Shown: one piece after another, positions 31,724 through 38,770 of the stretch
How positions within the stretch are numbered: the first letter of the stretch is position 1
How the letters are laid out: every line of letters begins with the position of its first letter
Source of the DNA: Rhodococcus sp. (in: high G+C Gram-positive bacteria)
Lineage (GTDB): Bacteria > Actinomycetota > Actinomycetes > Mycobacteriales > Mycobacteriaceae
DNA length: 53,927 nucleotides
NCBI GenBank assembly: GCA_012514505.1
Contig: JAAZAD010000023.1
Location: 1 to 53,927 of the forward strand
Direction of reading: 5' to 3'
Made by a program: the position numbers and the translations under genes
The notes under the pieces: generated by a model
What the model saw: only the letters and a program-made list of their open reading frames with translations
The model's database searches: none
Told to the model about the DNA's origin: nothing

Positions 31724-33385
31724 TCAGCTGGTGAGAAACTCGTACGCCATCTGATACTTACTGATAGTGACCCCGTATGCGAGGACGCCCTTACCGTTCT
31801 TACGGACGGTCTTGTTCGTGAACGCGCACGCGACGTTCAAGGTGTAAAGAGTGTCATCGTCGTGACCGCCTAGACTTCCGTGGTAGTGATACGTGATCGG
31901 AATTCCGTCCTTGCTGCTTTGGTTGACAAGCGCTCCTTCCCTGCGCGTGTAGTTCAAGCAACTCATACCAGTGTTTACCCCATTGACAGCCTTACGTTGG
32001 ATGAACGACTCGTCAATTTTGAAGCCCCAAGCAAGATATCGGCTGTCGTAGTCTGCAGAGGCGCGACGGGCATTCAGTGTGCCGCTGTAGCTGTCGAGGA
32101 CGACTTCTTCGCCGTGGTTGAAATAGACGATCCCCCCTCCTGATACGGGTTCCAAGAACGTCTCCGTGTTCACATCGATCACGTGATTTTCGAAGATCTG
32201 CGCGGGCGTTCCAGCGTTGTCGTACTGGTCCTGAACCGGGTACCCCCACGCGCCTGTCTCGTATCCGCTCAGTTCCCATCCGAGCAGGATTGCACCGGTC
32301 ACGGGGTGCGCGCCGGTCACCGGGTGCCAGTAGATGACCCCTCGTTCGAAGCGGTTCATACGACCCTGTCCGTCGGGCAGAACAACTTCGTCGCTGGTGG
32401 GGTAGCCCAGCGTGCCGCCTTCCCAACCTGTCTGGCCCCACTTATCTCGGATCGCGCCACCGACGGTGTGTGCGCCAGTCAGGGGGCTCCAATACACACT
32501 CGCGCCCTGGAAGATCTGCATCCGTCCGCCATTGAGCACGATCTCGTCGGTTGTGGGATACCGCAGCCAACCAGCCTCGTAGCCGTACTGTCCCCACTTC
32601 TGGTGGAAGTGGTTGACCACCGGGTGTGCACCGGTAGCGGCGGACCAGTAGATCGGCCCGTTCTGAAAGAGCGATCTGCGTCCGAAACCATCGGGATTGA
32701 CCAGCTCGTTCGTGGTGGGCCATAGGAGAAAGCTATTCGGACCGCCGAGGGAGTTGTACTTGTCCTTGATCGCGCCGCACACCTGATACGGGGACGGCCA
32801 GTACACCTGGCATCCCGGCGAAGCCATACGCGACATCTGCTGGCGCGCCTCCATGGTCTCGGCCTTGTCTGCATCTTCCTTGGTGAACCCTTCCGGGATC
32901 TCCTGCCGATCCGACCGCATCTTCCCCGGCACCACCGTGGCGTTCGGATTCTCGGTCGGCTTCCATTCACCGGCCGGCGCCTTCGCCGGCGAGACAGCAC
33001 TGGTCGACGCATCAGTCGTGGATGCCACCGGCGCCTCTGACGTACTCGCAGGCAGTTCCGTCGACGACGTGGGCTGCGTTGCTGTGGTCGTGGCGTCACT
33101 GAGCTGATCGGTCGTCGATGGAACGGGGACTCGAGTGGTGTCCGAAGGTAGATCTTCTGTCGTTGTTGTGGCCGATGGCGTCTCGGACTCCGGACGTTCC
33201 GCTGACTCGGTAGTCACCGGAACGGCGGTTGTCGTTGTGGTGGTAATTTCCGATTCCGGTTGTGCAGCAACCAAGCCGCCACCGGTAAACACCATCGCAG
33301 ATGCAAGCGACAGCACGGCTGCGCCCCGGGCCCACCGTCTCGATCGAGATCGCGTCGTACTGCGTGATCGCATATGCCCTGCCAT
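31724..33385 (-). CDS. Secreted LGFP-repeat protein with unknown C-terminal domain
   Basis: A 553-residue exported protein. After a twin-arginine-like/basic start (RSRSRRWARG) and signal peptide (AAVLSLASAMVFTGGGLVAA) comes a Thr/Ser/Pro-rich linker of about 120 residues. Four LGFP-type repeats follow at about 190-410, for example AIKDKYNSLGGPNSFLLWPT, HFHQKWGQYGYEAGWLRYPT, AIRDKWGQTGWEGGTLGYPT and AILLGWELSGYETGAWGYPV. LGFP repeats anchor proteins to the mycolic-acid cell wall. The last about 140 residues (GGGIVYFNHGEEVVLDSYSG, MSCLNYTRREGALVNQSS, HDDDTLYTLNVACAFTNKTV) match no family I know. The ATG at 33385 follows GGGAGGGG. GC content is lower than in the core genes. Confidence 0.85.
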   Translation of the reverse strand: MAGHMRSRSTTRSRSRRWARGAAVLSLASAMVFTGGGLVAAQPESEITTTTTTAVPVTTESAERPESETPSATTTTEDLPSDTTRVPVPSTTDQLSDATTTATQPTSSTELPASTSEAPVASTTDASTSAVSPAKAPAGEWKPTENPNATVVPGKMRSDRQEIPEGFTKEDADKAETMEARQQMSRMASPGCQVYWPSPYQVCGAIKDKYNSLGGPNSFLLWPTTNELVNPDGFGRRSLFQNGPIYWSAATGAHPVVNHFHQKWGQYGYEAGWLRYPTTDEIVLNGGRMQIFQGASVYWSPLTGAHTVGGAIRDKWGQTGWEGGTLGYPTSDEVVLPDGQGRMNRFERGVIYWHPVTGAHPVTGAILLGWELSGYETGAWGYPVQDQYDNAGTPAQIFENHVIDVNTETFLEPVSGGGIVYFNHGEEVVLDSYSGTLNARRASADYDSRYLAWGFKIDESFIQRKAVNGVNTGMSCLNYTRREGALVNQSSKDGIPITYHYHGSLGGHDDDTLYTLNVACAFTNKTVRKNGKGVLAYGVTISKYQMAYEFLTS

Positions 33386-33800
33386 TCGGGCCCCTCCCAT
33401 AGCAATCGAAGATCAGCAGCATCCGCCGCTGGGAAGAAACCTACGGCGAGTACTCAGCAACCACAAAGGAATCAAATATCACTTACGTAACAAACTCGAC
33501 CAATCGGCCAATTTCGTCAGAAGCATGGCGGCATGTACTACGAAACATCCCCAGAGGCATGGAATAGAGACCGTCGATCGGGCAGTCGCACCACGAACTT
33601 CGTCGCTTGCACATCCTCGTCAACTCCTCCGCGCCTCTGATCAGGTGAAGTAAGGAGTGTTCGAACGGTTCTGCGATTGACAAACACACAGGAACCCTTT
33701 CGCTTCGACACTCGAAAAGACGTTGTCACACCTCACCGAGTGCAACATGCTGTCGACAGACGCTTTAGCCGTCTCCCTGAGAAATGGAGAGCAGATCACC
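33386..33800. other. Intergenic region in the accessory segment
   Basis: About 415 bases separate the LGFP gene from the methyltransferase. The region is comparatively AT-rich (for example gaatcaaatatcacttacgtaacaaactcg, 33470-33499) and should contain two divergent promoters. Short open frames here look accidental. It may hold decayed insertion remnants, but nothing recognisable. Confidence 0.45.
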
Positions 33801-34646
33801 ATGCACGAAGAAGCCGTTGCCGCTAACCAATCGAATTGGGACGACCGCGCCGACATCCATGTCCGTTCCGAGATGTACGACATCGACGGCTTTCTGTCGG
33901 ATCCCACGACGATCTCCAGCGTGGTGGAAAACGACCTTTCGGTGCTCTCCCCCTACCTGCCTGAGTCGGGGATCCGAAACCTCTCACTCCTACATCTGCA
34001 GTGCCACATCGGAACAGACACCATCTCGTGGGCACGACTCGGCGCAGTCGACGTTCACGGACTCGACTTCTCACCCAACTCCCTGCGCCATGCACAGCAG
34101 ATCGCGAAGGCCGACGGTCACGTCATCACGTGGGTGCAAGGCGATGCACGGACAGCGTCGACGCTCATCGACAAGCGCTTCGATGTCGTCGTCACCAGTG
34201 CGGGAACCATTGTCTGGCTACCGGATCTCACCAACTGGGCACAGTCCATCCACGATCTACTCGAACCGGGTGGGCTGTTCATGATCCGCGACGATCATCC
34301 GATCCTCGGAGCAATGGCGTTCGAGCCCTGGGAGATCAGCGACGACTATCTGTCCGGCGGCGGGACCCGCACCTACGAAGATTCCGGCAGCTATACGGAC
34401 AACACCGGACCCGAGATCACGCACGTCACCAACCACGAGTGGCGGCACGACCTGAGTGAGGTGTTCGGTGCACTCTCGGCTGCCGGTCTGAAAATCGAGT
34501 CGCTGCTAGAACTGCCGTGCATGGACTGGCCTGCATTTCCGGACCTCGAGCCCTGTTCTCGCGGATGGACCCTGCCGGAGTCCGCACCGCGGATCCCGTT
34601 GAATTTCGCCATCGTCGCGCGACGCCCAAAACTGGGCAGCAATTGA
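33801..34646 (+). CDS. Class I SAM-dependent methyltransferase
   Basis: A 281-residue methyltransferase with a Rossmann-type fold. Motif I is LLHLQCHIGTDTISWARLGA, where a glutamine-cysteine-histidine variant replaces the usual acidic-x-G-x-G. Motif II is VDVHGLDFSPNSLRHAQQIA, then VQGDARTA, FDVVVTSAGTIVWLPDL and LLEPGGLFMIRDDHPILGAM. The substrate is unknown; small-molecule methyltransferases share this layout. The ATG at 33801 (MHEEAVAANQSNWDDRADIH) follows gagag. The next gene, a MerR-clamp fusion, has its own promoter overlapping this stop codon. Confidence 0.82.
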   Translation: MHEEAVAANQSNWDDRADIHVRSEMYDIDGFLSDPTTISSVVENDLSVLSPYLPESGIRNLSLLHLQCHIGTDTISWARLGAVDVHGLDFSPNSLRHAQQIAKADGHVITWVQGDARTASTLIDKRFDVVVTSAGTIVWLPDLTNWAQSIHDLLEPGGLFMIRDDHPILGAMAFEPWEISDDYLSGGGTRTYEDSGSYTDNTGPEITHVTNHEWRHDLSEVFGALSAAGLKIESLLELPCMDWPAFPDLEPCSRGWTLPESAPRIPLNFAIVARRPKLGSN

Positions 34647-34673
34647 CCTTCACGTAGGTCGAAGGCCAATGAT
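34643..34673 (+). promoter_or_regulatory. MerR-type promoter/operator with 19-bp spacer
   Basis: A -35-like TTGACC (34643-34648) and a -10-like AATGAT (34668-34673) are separated by 19 bases, the overlong spacer typical of MerR-activated promoters. The spacer holds nested dyads: GACCT/AGGTC (34645-34649 and 34656-34660) and GACCTTC/GAAGGCC (34645-34651 and 34661-34667, one mismatch). The GTG start at 34680 is six bases after the -10, so the transcript would be leaderless. Confidence 0.7.
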
Positions 34674-34679
34674 GGCGGG

Positions 34680-35777
34680 GTGTCCAATTCCGAGTTGATG
34701 CCCATCGGCACCTTCGCCCGAAGCACCGGCCTGACGGCAAGCGCACTGCGCTTCTACGCCGATTCCGGTTTGCTGTGTCCCGCCGAGGTCGATGTGGTCT
34801 CGGGGTACCGCTTCTACGCGGTACAGCAGCTCGAACGCGCCGTGCTGCTACGGCAGTTGCGCGAAATCGCGATGCCACTCGCATCGGCGAAGTCCGTCCT
34901 CGATTCAGTCCCAGACGAGGCAGTGCGCATCCTCGACGACCACGTGGCCACTGTGCTGGGCGAAGCCGAGGCCATGCGTCAGAACGCCGCTGTCATCAAG
35001 GCGTCGTTGATCGGAGAGCACGGCCAGACGGTCGCAGTCCTGAGCGGGCCGGTATTCGCGGCGGCCATCGACCAAGTGCTGACGGCAACCACACGTGAAC
35101 CGGAGATGGCGGCCCTGGGCGGCATGCACTTCGAGGTCGATGCGGATGCGGTCACCTTGACCGCCACCGATCGTTACCGGATATCCACTCGCACACTGGT
35201 TCCCGCCGATCCGATCACGATGACGTGGACTGCGACGGTGAACGCCGACGATCTACGCAACTGCCTGTCCGAGCTTCGTCGCAGCCCTCGAGTGACGGTG
35301 GAAGCACAGGAACACGGGATCTGGATGCGAATGCCGACTCGGCCCGACCACTATTGCCACCTCGTCAACGAGACCTTTCCCGACTATCGGTCGATGCTCG
35401 CGAACCTTCCCGAGGCGACCACCCGCGTCACGGTCCCGAAATCTCCTTTCCTGCATGCGCTCGAACAGATCGTGACCGTTCGGGTGTCCTTGTGCGTCAC
35501 CGACACCGCACTGTCGATTGGTGACGAGCAGGAGACAGGGACGCCGGTTCCGGCGACCGTCACCGGACCGGCGATAGACGTCTGGTTCGAGATGACCACG
35601 CTCTATCCCGCCATCAGCACAGCGCTCGGTCCGGACGTACTGCTCGATCTCAGGGCTCCCGACCAGCCGGCGACGATCCGATCCGCCGATCACGGCGACC
35701 TCACCACACTCGCCATGCCCACCCGCCCCCGAACTCGACGCCAGGAGAACGACGATGACCACACCGACAACCGCTGA
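34680..35777 (+). CDS. MerR-type regulator fused to DnaN-like sliding-clamp domains
   Basis: A 365-residue two-part protein. Residues about 6-75 are a MerR winged helix (MPIGTFARSTGLTASALRFY, DVVSGYRFYAVQQLERAVLL), and about 85-110 form the MerR dimerisation helix. From about 120 the sequence resembles the second and third domains of the DNA polymerase III beta clamp: AAIDQVLTATTREPEMAALG, TLTATDRYRISTRTL, and the clamp signature ETFPDYRSML near 233. A clamp domain 3-like end reads LYPAISTALGPDVLLDLRAP, TIRSADHGDLTTLAMP. The first clamp domain is absent. Similar MerR/beta-clamp fusions are annotated in other actinobacteria, but I know of no functional description. The TPR-like gene overlaps its end by 23 bases. 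Confidence 0.88.
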   Translation: MSNSELMPIGTFARSTGLTASALRFYADSGLLCPAEVDVVSGYRFYAVQQLERAVLLRQLREIAMPLASAKSVLDSVPDEAVRILDDHVATVLGEAEAMRQNAAVIKASLIGEHGQTVAVLSGPVFAAAIDQVLTATTREPEMAALGGMHFEVDADAVTLTATDRYRISTRTLVPADPITMTWTATVNADDLRNCLSELRRSPRVTVEAQEHGIWMRMPTRPDHYCHLVNETFPDYRSMLANLPEATTRVTVPKSPFLHALEQIVTVRVSLCVTDTALSIGDEQETGTPVPATVTGPAIDVWFEMTTLYPAISTALGPDVLLDLRAPDQPATIRSADHGDLTTLAMPTRPRTRRQENDDDHTDNR

Positions 35778-36291
35778 CCCTGTCATGACGGCAATCATCG
35801 AAGCCGTCACGAAGGGCCGCGCCGGAGACTCCGACTCGGCTCGGGAGGCCCTTCTCGCACTGTGGGCCACCATCGGTAGCAACGGAGATCCGCTGCACCG
35901 CTGCACGTTGGCGCACTATCTTGCTGACCTCTACGACGATCCGGCGCAGGCCTTGACCTGGGACGTGCGCGCACTGGACGCGGCCGACGCGATCACCGAG
36001 CAGCGGGTCCAAGAACACCACGCCGGTCTGCACGTCTCCGGATTCTACCCTTCACTTCACCTCAACCTCGCCGACAACTACCGCCGACTCGAATCATTCG
36101 ACGCCGCAAGCGCCCACATCGATGTCGCACGTGAACATTCGTCTGCCCTGCCGGAAAACGCATACGGCGCGCTCGTGCGTGACGGGATCGACGGCGTGGC
36201 AGAAGCAATCGCCCGACGCGACACCACGCCGCGTCAACGCACTGCAGGCACCACTTCCCGCTCGAACAATTCGATGCCCGACGTGTCGTAG
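35755..36291 (+). CDS. TPR-like protein coupled to the MerR-clamp gene
   Basis: A 178-residue all-helical protein. Helix pairs resembling tetratricopeptide repeats are visible: DSAREALLALWATIGSNGDP with LHRCTLAHYLADLYDDPAQA, ALTWDVRALDAADAITEQRV, and YPSLHLNLADNYRRLESFDA with ASAHIDVAREHSSALP. The last about 20 residues (TPRQRTAGTTSRSNNSMPDV) are disordered and antisense to the end of the oxidoreductase gene. The ATG follows aggagaac and overlaps the regulator's end by 23 bases, so translation is probably coupled. A protein-binding adaptor role is likely from the fold; the partner is probably the MerR-clamp protein (inference). Confidence 0.75.
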   Translation: MTTPTTADPVMTAIIEAVTKGRAGDSDSAREALLALWATIGSNGDPLHRCTLAHYLADLYDDPAQALTWDVRALDAADAITEQRVQEHHAGLHVSGFYPSLHLNLADNYRRLESFDAASAHIDVAREHSSALPENAYGALVRDGIDGVAEAIARRDTTPRQRTAGTTSRSNNSMPDVS

Positions 36292-37220
36292 GCGGCCTCG
36301 GGGAAGTAGCAGATCCCGTATTCGAGACCCATGTCCTTCAGCTTCCCCAGCTTCTCGACGATCTGCTCGGGCGTGCCGACACCCGGCAGCCCACGAAACG
36401 CCCCGAGTGCGCCTTCCGCTGCCGCTTCACCGACATGCGGAATCAAGCGGGACTTCAGGGCTTGCAGCCGGTCTTCGACCTCGGCCTCGGTGGTGCCGAT
36501 GGCAACGTTGTAATTGGACGTCCGCACAATGGCGTCGAAATCGGTTCCGACTGCCTGGCAATGTGCCTTCAACACATTGGATTTGTGAGCGAACACCTCC
36601 GGTGTTCCGTCGAAATTCGCATAGTTCGCATACTTGGCAACGATCCTCAACGTCACCTTCTCGCCACCACCGGCAATCCACAGCGGAAGACCGCCGTCCT
36701 GTAACGGCAGCGGCCGCACGATCGCCCCGTCGACCTGATAGTGCTTGCCGTCGAAGGTGGCCGAACCGGTGGACCACGCCTGGCGCATGATCTGGACGCC
36801 TTCGTCGAGTCGGGCCAGTCGCTGCCCGGGCGGCGGGAACCCGTACCCGTACGCCCGCCATTCCTGCTCGTACCACCCGGCCCCGATACCCATTTCGACC
36901 CGGCCACCCGAGATGAGGTCGGTGGTGGCCGCGACCTTCGCGAGGTAGGCAGGGTTGCGGTAGCTCATCGCCGTACACATCTGACCGAGACGTATCCGCG
37001 ATGTGCTGGCAGCGAGTGCGGACATCAACGTCCACGCCTCGTGGGTGGCTTCCTGCGTGGGCTCCGGGACGGTGTGAAAGTGGTCGTAGACCCAAGCCGA
37101 TTCCCACGGTCCGCCTTCCGCACGCAGCACGAAATCGCGAATCAGCGGCCAGTGCTCGGCCGGTTCGATTCCCACCAGATCCAAACGCCAGCCTTGAGGC
37201 ACGAACAGTCCGAATCGCAT
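36234..37220 (-). CDS. LLM-class F420-dependent oxidoreductase
   Basis: A luciferase-like monooxygenase-fold protein of 328 residues, probably using coenzyme F420 (or FMN). It begins MRFGLFVPQGWRLDL. Family blocks are PWESAWVYDHFHTVPEPTQE, TSRIRLGQMCTAMSYRNPAY, LISGGRVEMGIGAGWYEQEW and LPLQDGGLPLWIAGGGEKVT, with a GTPEQIVEKLGKLKDMGLEY end. The substrate is not predictable. It is convergent with the TPR-like gene (58-base overlap) and divergent from the ECF41 sigma gene. Confidence 0.9.
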   Translation of the reverse strand: MRFGLFVPQGWRLDLVGIEPAEHWPLIRDFVLRAEGGPWESAWVYDHFHTVPEPTQEATHEAWTLMSALAASTSRIRLGQMCTAMSYRNPAYLAKVAATTDLISGGRVEMGIGAGWYEQEWRAYGYGFPPPGQRLARLDEGVQIMRQAWSTGSATFDGKHYQVDGAIVRPLPLQDGGLPLWIAGGGEKVTLRIVAKYANYANFDGTPEVFAHKSNVLKAHCQAVGTDFDAIVRTSNYNVAIGTTEAEVEDRLQALKSRLIPHVGEAAAEGALGAFRGLPGVGTPEQIVEKLGKLKDMGLEYGICYFPEAAYDTSGIELFEREVVPAVR

Positions 37221-37278
37221 GGTCCGAGGCTACCCGCGACGGCGCCGGAATCTGCCTTTCCGACGTAGACTCGGCAGC

Positions 37279-38190
37279 ATGACAACGGCGTCTCTCACGG
37301 ACGAGTTCGAAACACATCGACGTCACCTGTTGTCGGTCGCGTACCGGCTCACGGGAAGCGTCGGCGATGCCGAGGACGCGGTACAGGAGTCGTGGATTCG
37401 GTTGCACTCCAACAACTCGGAGCAGATTCGCGACCTCGGGGCCTGGCTCACCACGGTCGTGGGGCGAGTATGCCTCGACAGGCTGCGCTCGGCGGCCGTG
37501 CGGCGAGAAACCTATGTGGGGCAATGGCTCCCGGAGCCGATCGTCACCGACATCGCACCGTCGGCCGAGCCCGATCCGTTGGATTACGTCGTGGACCAGG
37601 AAGACAACCGCCTGGCCGCACTCGTCGTGCTCGATGCACTGCCGCCGCAACAGAGGGTTGCCCTCGTTCTACACGACGGCTTCTCCGTACCGTTCGCCGA
37701 AATCGCGAACATCCTCGACGTGGAGGTGGCGACCGCACGCCAGTTGGCCTCACGTGGCCGTAAAGCAGCGTCCACGGCCACTCCCCCCGTCCCGGACGAC
37801 GAGCACACGGCGGCGGTTACACGGTTGATCGAAGCCATGGCCAGTGGAGATCTCGACGCCGTCGTCGCAGCACTGCACCCGGACGCCAGGGTGATCGGCG
37901 ACGCCAACGGCACCACCAACACCGCCGTCAACGTCATCGTGGGCGCAAACAAGTTCGCGCGCTTCTTCCTCGGACTCAGCAAGCGGTATGGCAATACTGC
38001 GTTCGAGAAGTTGCAGCCGGTGCTGGTCAACGGTCAGCTCGGCTTCTACAACCCGGGGTTGCCCGAGAACGAACGCAACCGGGGGTTTGCGCCCCGTGTC
38101 AACGGCTTCACGGTGCGCGACGGGCTCGTCTACGCCGCGTACGACGTAGCGAACCCGGAGAAGTTCTCGGGGATCCGAATCAGCCGCTGA
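37279..38190 (+). CDS. ECF41-type sigma factor with SnoaL-like C-terminal domain
   Basis: A 303-residue extracytoplasmic-function sigma factor of the SigJ/ECF41 group. Sigma region 2 (HRRHLLSVAYRLTGSVGDAE to ESWIRLHS) and region 4 (VLDALPPQQRVALVLHDGFS, FAEIANILDVEVATARQLAS) are followed by a SnoaL-like domain. ECF41 hallmarks are present: the linker motif WLPEP after YVGQ, and NPEKF near the C-terminus in place of NPDKL. In this group the C-terminal domain tunes sigma activity and no anti-sigma factor is needed. The ATG at 37279 gives the family start. The usual ECF41 target type, a carboxymuconolactone decarboxylase gene, lies tail-to-tail with an 11-base overlap. Confidence 0.9.
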   Translation: MTTASLTDEFETHRRHLLSVAYRLTGSVGDAEDAVQESWIRLHSNNSEQIRDLGAWLTTVVGRVCLDRLRSAAVRRETYVGQWLPEPIVTDIAPSAEPDPLDYVVDQEDNRLAALVVLDALPPQQRVALVLHDGFSVPFAEIANILDVEVATARQLASRGRKAASTATPPVPDDEHTAAVTRLIEAMASGDLDAVVAALHPDARVIGDANGTTNTAVNVIVGANKFARFFLGLSKRYGNTAFEKLQPVLVNGQLGFYNPGLPENERNRGFAPRVNGFTVRDGLVYAAYDVANPEKFSGIRISR

Positions 38191-38770
38191 CGTTCTCGTC
38201 CGCCCACGGCACGCGGCACGCATCGGTACTGAACCCCTGATCGGTGATACCGAGCGCCGAGTTCATGCGCGCTCGCATGTTCTCGAGTCCGATCTGATAG
38301 GTCAGCTCCACGACGCCGTCGTTGCCGAAGCGGCGCGCCAGGTCCGCGACCTGCTCGTCCGTGACTCCGTTGTCCCCATGAACATCGCCGGTCATGGCGT
38401 CGGCGTACGCGATGGCAGCCTTCTCGTCGTCCGTATACAAGGTCGATTCGGCGTAGTTTCCGATCTCCTTCAGCCGGGCGACGTCCAGTCCGTCCAGGCG
38501 CTGCAACATCGTGCCGAAGTCGACGCACCAGGAGCAGCCGATGGTCCACGCCACCCGGTACACGGCAATCTCACGCACGTTCGCAGGCAAGACGGTGCAT
38601 GCCTTCTCCGCCGCGAGTTCGGCCACACCAGAGGCGGCCAGCAATTTGGGGTGATGGGCTGTGATCGCGAAGGGCTCGGGCACCTCACCGAACTGTCGAG
38701 CCGCGAACTTGTACGCAACCTTCACGACCGGACCGGCTTCCGCAGGTGTCACAGCGGGAATGCGTGTCAT
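38180..38770 (-). CDS. Carboxymuconolactone decarboxylase/AhpD-like protein
   Basis: A 196-residue AhpD-fold protein. The redox pair is in IGCSWCVDFGTMLQRLDGLD, with the proton-relay region VREIAVYRVAWT before it and LYTDDEKAAIAYADAMTGD after. Such proteins are peroxidase-like or decarboxylase-like; in ECF41 loci they are the standard sigma target. The ATG at 38770 has a GGAGG ribosome binding site. A sequence matching the ECF41 promoter pattern lies 49 bases upstream. The enzyme's substrate is unknown. Confidence 0.9.
   Translation of the reverse strand: MTRIPAVTPAEAGPVVKVAYKFAARQFGEVPEPFAITAHHPKLLAASGVAELAAEKACTVLPANVREIAVYRVAWTIGCSWCVDFGTMLQRLDGLDVARLKEIGNYAESTLYTDDEKAAIAYADAMTGDVHGDNGVTDEQVADLARRFGNDGVVELTYQIGLENMRARMNSALGITDQGFSTDACRVPWADENVSG

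Follow-up and report, generated by a model that had tools for sequence, protein, structure and literature searches.

Can a piece of the replicative sliding clamp serve as the sensing domain of a transcription factor and, if so, what would it sense? The question is raised by a two-gene module in a 53,927-nucleotide stretch of Rhodococcus sp. DNA (contig JAAZAD010000023.1 of assembly GCA_012514505.1; hereafter, the window). Its first gene encodes a MerR-type regulator whose C-terminal part resembles domains 2 and 3 of the sliding clamp DnaN (hereafter, MerR-clamp), and its second gene encodes a protein of the tetratricopeptide repeat (TPR) type. A clamp fragment used as a putative sensing domain would tie the replication machinery to gene control.

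The answer that we favour, with a probability of about 0.48, is that the module is a self-inducing sensor of ligands that plug sliding clamps and that, once induced, it would act as a decoy titrating the ligand from DnaN. This reading is based on three features: the main visible target of the regulator is its own module, the pocket that is a drug target in DnaN is conserved, and a clamp-only isoform is predicted in one lineage. Computation supports the architecture, the fold, the promoter geometry, the mostly self-directed operator, the conservation of the pocket, the loss of ring-interface positions, the operon coupling, and the predicted internal start in a sister clade; the class of ligand, the induction, the decoy action, and the role of the TPR protein are what we infer.

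A Clamp Fragment behind a MerR Head

A preliminary description, made from the sequence of the window alone, proposed a MerR helix-turn-helix followed by clamp domains 2 and 3 without domain 1, and a linked TPR gene. Both proposals hold. PF13411 matches residues 7–76 of the regulator at 4e-12, and the DnaN profile aligns with it over model positions 129–366 of 367 (38 bits, for a cut-off of 137.65), so that clamp domain 1 is absent. Consistent with this, most of the DnaN entries in the structure-match list obtained with the predicted fold begin at DnaN residues 118–135. The partner protein contains tandem helix-turn-helix hairpins of the TPR type (Table 1). Since a match to the DnaN profile is present beyond residue 120, and since the regulator and the TPR gene occur together, adjacent or fused, in 59 of the 95 modules described below, the fusion finding stands. 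The effector domain of TipAS (PF07739) has no match in the regulator at E values up to 1, and domain profile scans of the module proteins revealed no recognised toxin or nuclease domain. Listings from searches of the open-licence literature contained no paper on a MerR-clamp protein; domain databases presumably include the architecture.

The comparison is based on 97 loci, of which 95 gave a single MerR-plus-clamp gene and two (L083 and L129) did not and were dropped. Where loci repeated a region, only the longer was retained, and near-identical modules were kept (hence 93 promoters, 89 of them distinct). The alignment has 92 rows: it leaves out L005, L081, and L100, which are frameshifted or cut short, and includes L070 and L082 trimmed to the MerR-clamp part. 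For DnaN, 29 sequences from a subset of the genomes were used, each row being the last 400 residues (L200 of the 30 loci was dropped). A sister clade that lacks the adjacent TPR gene was represented by a first set of ten sequences and by a second set of the 30 best-scoring loci from 51 matching genomes, 199 genomes of one genus (that of G377, presumed to be Streptomyces) having been searched; L227, L233, and L247 in the second set come from the same genomes as three of the first.

A Promoter Predicted to Answer Mainly to Its Own Gene Product

Promoters controlled by MerR proteins have long spacers of 19–20 bp with the operator inside the spacer (PMC9909328, in part), and the module promoters have this geometry. 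A TTGACC-type operator is present at the start of 93 of the 95 modules, versus 3 of the 789 other genes of the same loci. Two promoters required attention: in L070 (G325), the start was mis-called and the promoter was recovered by a pattern search, and in L023, the promoter is the variant TTGCGCTTC. The genes had been called by a simple script based on codon usage, and start sites were therefore judged against the promoter. The A and T of the −10 element are at exactly the 19-bp spacing in 88 of the 89 distinct promoters, and the first base of the −35 element is 37 or 38 bases away from an ATG or GTG, again in 88 of the 89. Given this distance, the transcript of the module is probably leaderless, with a predicted start, in the window, at the GTG at 34680.

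When up to two mismatches are allowed, the genome of the window contains one operator site, which is at the module. In 16 of 24 further genomes, the only site is the one at the module itself, and the other eight have none because their own promoters differ from the pattern. A looser pattern applied to 18 genomes, including that of the window, matches at the module in 16 and nowhere in two, with one extra site in G441. Within the limits of such pattern searches, the operator is nearly private to its own module, from which we conclude that the predicted autoregulation is the main regulation exerted. This autoregulatory promoter and the scarcity of other targets go beyond what the preliminary description had claimed, as does the predicted internal start in the sister clade (see below).

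A Conserved Subsite in a Clamp Part with Altered Ring-Interface Positions

In the published definition of the clamp pocket that we used, subsite I accepts the LF end of clamp-binding motifs (PMC11139829, in part). The pocket of the window protein is made up of M143, L146, T163, R165, Y166, R167, I168, and P234 from clamp domain 2 and of S238, M239, E304, T307, D328, L344, M346, P347, T348, and R349 from clamp domain 3. In the 92 MerR-clamps, the median entropy is 0.68 for subsite I versus 2.25 for the rest of the clamp part (p 7e-5, in a rank test that treats positions as independent), and 2.63 for subsite II (p 0.73 versus the rest). The corresponding values for the 29 DnaN sequences are 0.22 for subsite I (p 0.002), 0.80 for subsite II (p 0.07), and 1.14 for the rest. 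The equivalents of M362 and P363 are invariant (92/92), those of L155, R176, and P242 are kept in 91, and that of T172 in 90; some positions outside the pocket definition (e.g., 346, 350, and 173) are as conserved as those within it. Apart from positions 152, 246, and 247, subsite I is largely that of a DnaN. In subsite II, the equivalents of N320, Y323, and V344 have diverged in the window's clade, as has that of R365 in most of its members, although P363 is retained. The TPR-less sister clade keeps the full pocket, with the N320 equivalent in 29/30, F or Y at 323 in 30/30, and R365 in 28/30. The earlier suggestion that the clamp fold senses clamp-binding ligands therefore gains indirect support from subsite I and loses some from the remodelling, in the window's clade, of subsite II, which holds the glutamine of the motif.

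Could the clamp part still form a ring? It has been reported that mutation at positions 272–273 renders the Escherichia coli clamp monomeric (PMC11139829, in part). These positions are changed or deleted in the MerR-clamps: 273 is filled in 6 of the 92, and in the Streptomyces-type clade, 29 of 30 sequences have V and R where 29/29 DnaN have L and V/L. Positions 148 and 198, which we take to be DNA-facing, are basic in 29/29 DnaN and mostly lost in MerR-clamps; most of the family has also lost position 205, which 30/30 of the Streptomyces-type clade keep. The head-to-tail ring of DnaN, in which domain 1 meets domain 3, is not to be expected of a protein with no domain 1 and an altered 272–273. 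The preliminary description had drawn a comparison with PCNA, whose trimers are built of two-domain clamp units. A PCNA-like ring, or sliding on DNA, draws on this precedent; the state of positions 272–273, 148, 198, and (in most sequences) 205, together with the long MerR-type helix of the predicted model and the retained operator, makes it hardly credible.

A Predicted Internal Start in the Sister Clade

In the TPR-less clade, the linker between the MerR and clamp parts contains a Shine–Dalgarno sequence followed by ATG in 30/30 of the presumed Streptomyces set and by ATG or GTG in 10/10 of the first set; the same linker Shine–Dalgarno sequence and start codon are present in a copy on a Streptomyces atratus plasmid. 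For comparison, ATG and GTG codons in frame elsewhere in these genes are preceded by such a sequence in 64 of 1701 cases in the analysis that included the first set and in 36 of 529 in that of the 30 loci. The linker arginine codon that forms the Shine–Dalgarno sequence is AGG in 25/30, versus 28 of the 1189 arginines elsewhere in these genes (p 2.5e-36, in a binomial test that takes no account of relatedness; over their first 115 residues, these proteins are at least 72% identical to one another, with a median of 85%). We therefore predict a clamp-only short isoform of about 245 residues in this clade, which is mostly presumed Streptomyces. A TipA-like short isoform throughout the family was considered and rejected: a Shine–Dalgarno sequence with ATG or GTG is found in the linker of 14 of the 92 sequences, and ten of these belong to one clade. 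Elsewhere, a Shine–Dalgarno sequence and start codon occur at the MerR/clamp junction in L049 and L087, which belong to the larger clade of the window and have no adjacent TPR gene, and also in L003 and L104, which have one.

The TPR Partner and the Transporter

The TPR gene follows the regulator in 50 of the 95 modules, precedes it in eight, is fused to it in one (L082, a natural fusion in a single reading frame of 540 residues), and is non-adjacent in 36. All 58 adjacent same-strand pairs lie within 130 bases of one another and 33 overlap; where the TPR gene comes first, the promoter sits ahead of it. The expectation that the TPR gene always follows thus had to be abandoned, and so, in view of the 36 modules, did the idea of an obligate adjacent partner. 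L005 and L033, for which no adjacent TPR gene was called, contain pieces of one in two frames.

In a tree of the clamp part, the TPR-first group (four rows after thinning, support 99/84) branches with ten TPR-less rows and L079 (99/89), and the TPR-second group lies apart from this branch. The coupling is therefore either ancestral with frequent loss or was gained twice. L009 (8114–8536) and L003 (8744–9283) have second, partial or diverged, TPR copies a few kilobases downstream of the module. Many of the TPR partners carry, beyond the last helix, a short C-terminal tail in which the pattern R-x-S/T-A-P recurs; the copy in the window has no such tail. In 11 of 22 further TPR-family loci examined (L157, L160–L162, L166–L170, L173, and L175), a lone copy has a same-strand neighbour that reads by eye as a uracil-DNA glycosylase gene.

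A transporter gene of the major facilitator superfamily (MFS) is the next gene downstream on the same strand in three of the 95 modules, where it overlaps (L074) or lies after a gap of 95 (L079) or 232 bases (L081). As a hallmark of a drug sensor, this transporter was weakened by L208, which comes from the same genus as its relatives L079 and L081, the third of them there, and has no adjacent MFS gene.

A Proposed Self-Inducing Sensor and Decoy

The mechanism that we propose is that of a self-contained, self-inducing sensor. The ligand would dock in the former pocket for clamp-binding motifs, between clamp domains 2 and 3, and would therefore be something able to plug sliding clamps. The most likely candidate is a natural product directed at the clamp, such as those of the griselimycin/mycoplanecin type; failing that, it would be a peptide or protein that binds clamps. 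Activation would raise the level of the module itself, and the induced clamp module would draw the ligand off DnaN by the logic of TipA. Each lineage might add an accessory output, namely, the TPR protein in the window's clade, the clamp-only short isoform in the mostly presumed Streptomyces clade, and the MFS transporter in three modules. A sharper version, which seems possible but tentative, is that the drug target itself is mimicked: clamp domains 2 and 3 set in a MerR switch would detect clamp-directed antibiotics and flood the cell with decoy pockets, these being the regulator itself, the clamp-only isoform (in Streptomyces and relatives), or the regulator plus the TPR protein or an exporter. 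Sensor, decoy, and regulator would then be one gene, and the principle of resistance would extend to organisms beyond the producers.

One of the closest known parallels is TipA, a minimal autoregulated system with a full-length protein and a short isoform that sequesters the drug (PMC7762955, in part). The MerR-clamp resembles the TipA/SkgA class (TipAL and TipAS) in having a MerR DNA-binding domain with a C-terminal domain for the ligand, in its promoter, autoregulated as judged from sequence, and, in the sister clade, in a predicted isoform with the ligand domain alone via an internal start. It differs in that its effector part is a sliding-clamp fragment instead of TipAS, often followed by a TPR gene, and in that the window's clade has no predicted short isoform. 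BmrR and other drug-sensing MerR proteins with GyrI-like domains also join a MerR head to a separate ligand-binding fold (PMC7762955, in part); theirs is another fold, whereas that of the MerR-clamp derives from a drug target. From DnaN itself, the MerR-clamp differs by the missing domain 1, the changed or deleted interface positions, the loss of some basic residues taken to face the DNA, the fusion to MerR, and, in the window's clade, the altered subsite II. The second clamps GriR and MypR of griselimycin and mycoplanecin producers are, likewise, extra clamp-derived proteins that may answer clamp-directed antibiotics; however, they are described as DnaN genes in or by biosynthetic clusters (PMC10817943, in part), whereas the MerR-clamp is a two-domain fragment on a regulator. 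A second full-length dnaN-like gene above the TIGR00663 cut-off was seen in three of 28 genomes, all of one family (G367 L205; G314 L206; G462:C27:61004-62143).

Several observations weigh against the proposal of a sensor and decoy. In the pocket, positions 152 and 246 of subsite I vary widely (247 also varies), and subsite II is remodelled in the 67 sequences of the window's clade, with E in 22 and D in 21 at position 320, T in 48 at 323, D in 42 at 344, and R in 18 at 365, so that neither griselimycin nor canonical QLxLF peptides may be ligands in this clade; R349, the equivalent of R365, is nevertheless retained in the window. Griselimycins and mycoplanecin occupy both subsites of the DnaN pocket and make few hydrogen bonds, with R365 among the partners (PMC10817943, in part). 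Since the residues in contact with griselimycin are only partly kept in the window's clade, the ligand there may differ or may bind mainly via subsite I. As for the isoform, the 30 linker sequences were the highest-scoring ones of a single genus and are related to one another, a cruder pattern also picked up Shine–Dalgarno-like bases at position 145 (11 of 36 start-type codons), and there is no conserved internal start in the window's clade. The operator searches used patterns with few mismatches, and unlinked targets with weaker sites may exist. The MFS link is rare (3/95, and missing from L208). Finally, at E 1e-12, 87 of 394 genomes have a member of the TPR family, which also occurs alone; of the 22 further TPR-family loci examined (out of 30), 21 have no MerR-clamp within their 1.5-kb flanks; and seven of ten genomes of the TPR-less clade carry a TPR copy elsewhere, which makes action in trans possible.

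Does the pocket instead read the cell's own replication? An endogenous sensor of replication or repair, with a pocket that binds free host proteins bearing clamp-binding motifs (e.g., translesion factors after DNA damage) and a module that adjusts clamp traffic, would fit the strong conservation of subsite I, where the LF end of these motifs is bound; moreover, a gene judged by eye to be dnaB precedes the L088 module, and a plasmid dnaE is found near one of the plasmid modules. However, with hardly any operator beyond the module itself, no DNA-repair regulon is seen, the neighbours vary from locus to locus, and a housekeeping sensor would not be expected to be so patchy (one clade occurs in 51 of the 199 genomes searched in one genus), all of which leaves this explanation doubtful. 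Another explanation places the ligand within the module: the TPR protein would bind the MerR-clamp, perhaps in the pocket, as a co-regulator or anti-activator, and the pair would form one sensing complex. The 58 same-strand neighbours with their 33 overlaps, the L082 fusion, the clade with the swapped order, and the presence of both genes in two of three plasmid modules examined are all in its favour, but the promoter and pocket persist in the 36 modules without an adjacent TPR gene (a copy might act in trans) and the TPR family is found without the MerR-clamp; we regard it as unlikely.

A defensive role, in which the module would detect phage or plasmid proteins taking over the sliding clamp, has less to recommend it and appears distinctly improbable. 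Gp168, which we take to be a phage protein, would be such an intruder, and its complex with the clamp (7evp) is in the list of fold matches; this is because the clamp chain in it has the same fold. The modules on plasmids, one of them between transposase genes, and the patchy distribution would suit defence, but the module lacks a recognised toxin or nuclease domain and the regulator is without a match in the phage records (see below).

If the ligand proves to be a clamp-directed antibiotic, the family could bear on how resistance to griselimycins, a class regarded as an anti-tuberculosis lead, arises in the environment, and the module would be usable as a biosensor in the search for new clamp inhibitors; if it is a cellular clamp-binding protein, the module would report clamp traffic. 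Whichever the ligand, the question lends itself to direct tests, since it comes down to one gene, one main operator, and one pocket.

Distribution

Nine loci from a genome scan came from Nocardia, Rhodococcus, Prescottella, Williamsia, Brevibacterium, and Gordonia. At E 1e-25, profile matches were obtained in the window's family for 69 of 201 genomes and in its class for 43 of 394, some of them covering just one half, either MerR or clamp. A search of 296 genomes of the phylum (E 1e-35, up to six candidates per genome) gave nine matches that extend into the MerR part, all in the window's class; matches in other classes, which start at model position 112 or beyond, were taken as DnaN. A spread outside the class but within the phylum was therefore rejected, as was a phage origin, since 50,697 phage records gave no match to the regulator.

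Among 72,556 plasmid records, eight match the regulator; in the seven of these that list a gene at the match, it is annotated as 'MerR family transcriptional regulator'. The three plasmid modules examined are on linear Streptomyces replicons, and in two of them the regulator is followed by a TPR-family member annotated as 'hypothetical protein'. On one linear Streptomyces plasmid (L258, 4041–8166), the MerR-clamp/TPR pair is a compact two-gene cassette flanked by two transposase genes. A conserved neighbourhood was rejected as a clue to function because the flanks vary by locus and, besides the TPR gene, few local pairings recur.

Layout of the Module and Its Neighbours in the Window

The coordinates of the module are collected in Table 1.

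Table 1. Features of the MerR-clamp module, in positions of the window.
Feature	Position	Strand	Basis or remark
MerR-type promoter/operator	34643..34673	+	−35 TTGACC 34643–34648; 19-bp spacer with imperfect dyad; −10 AATGAT 34668–34673
MerR-clamp regulator, 365 aa	34680..35777	+	GTG start is the predicted transcription start
MerR winged helix-turn-helix domain, residues 7–76	34698..34907	+	domain profile match
Long helix, residues 78–111	34911..35012	+	predicted model; putative role in antiparallel coiled-coil dimerisation, by analogy with the MerR family
Clamp domain 2, about residues 115–235	35022..35384	+	border placed by alignment
Clamp domain 3, about residues 236–351	35385..35732	+	profile match, alignment, and structure comparison
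TPR partner, 178 aa	35755..36291	+	three TPR hairpins and a capping helix; overlaps the regulator gene by 23 bp

Upstream, window positions 31724–33400 encode a protein with LGFP repeats. Downstream, a convergent gene for an F420-dependent LLM oxidoreductase (36234–37220) shares 58 bases with the end of the TPR gene. It is followed, at 37219–38770, by a sigma factor of the ECF type that bears a SnoaL-like domain at its C terminus, adjoining an opposite-strand gene that resembles those for carboxymuconolactone decarboxylases.

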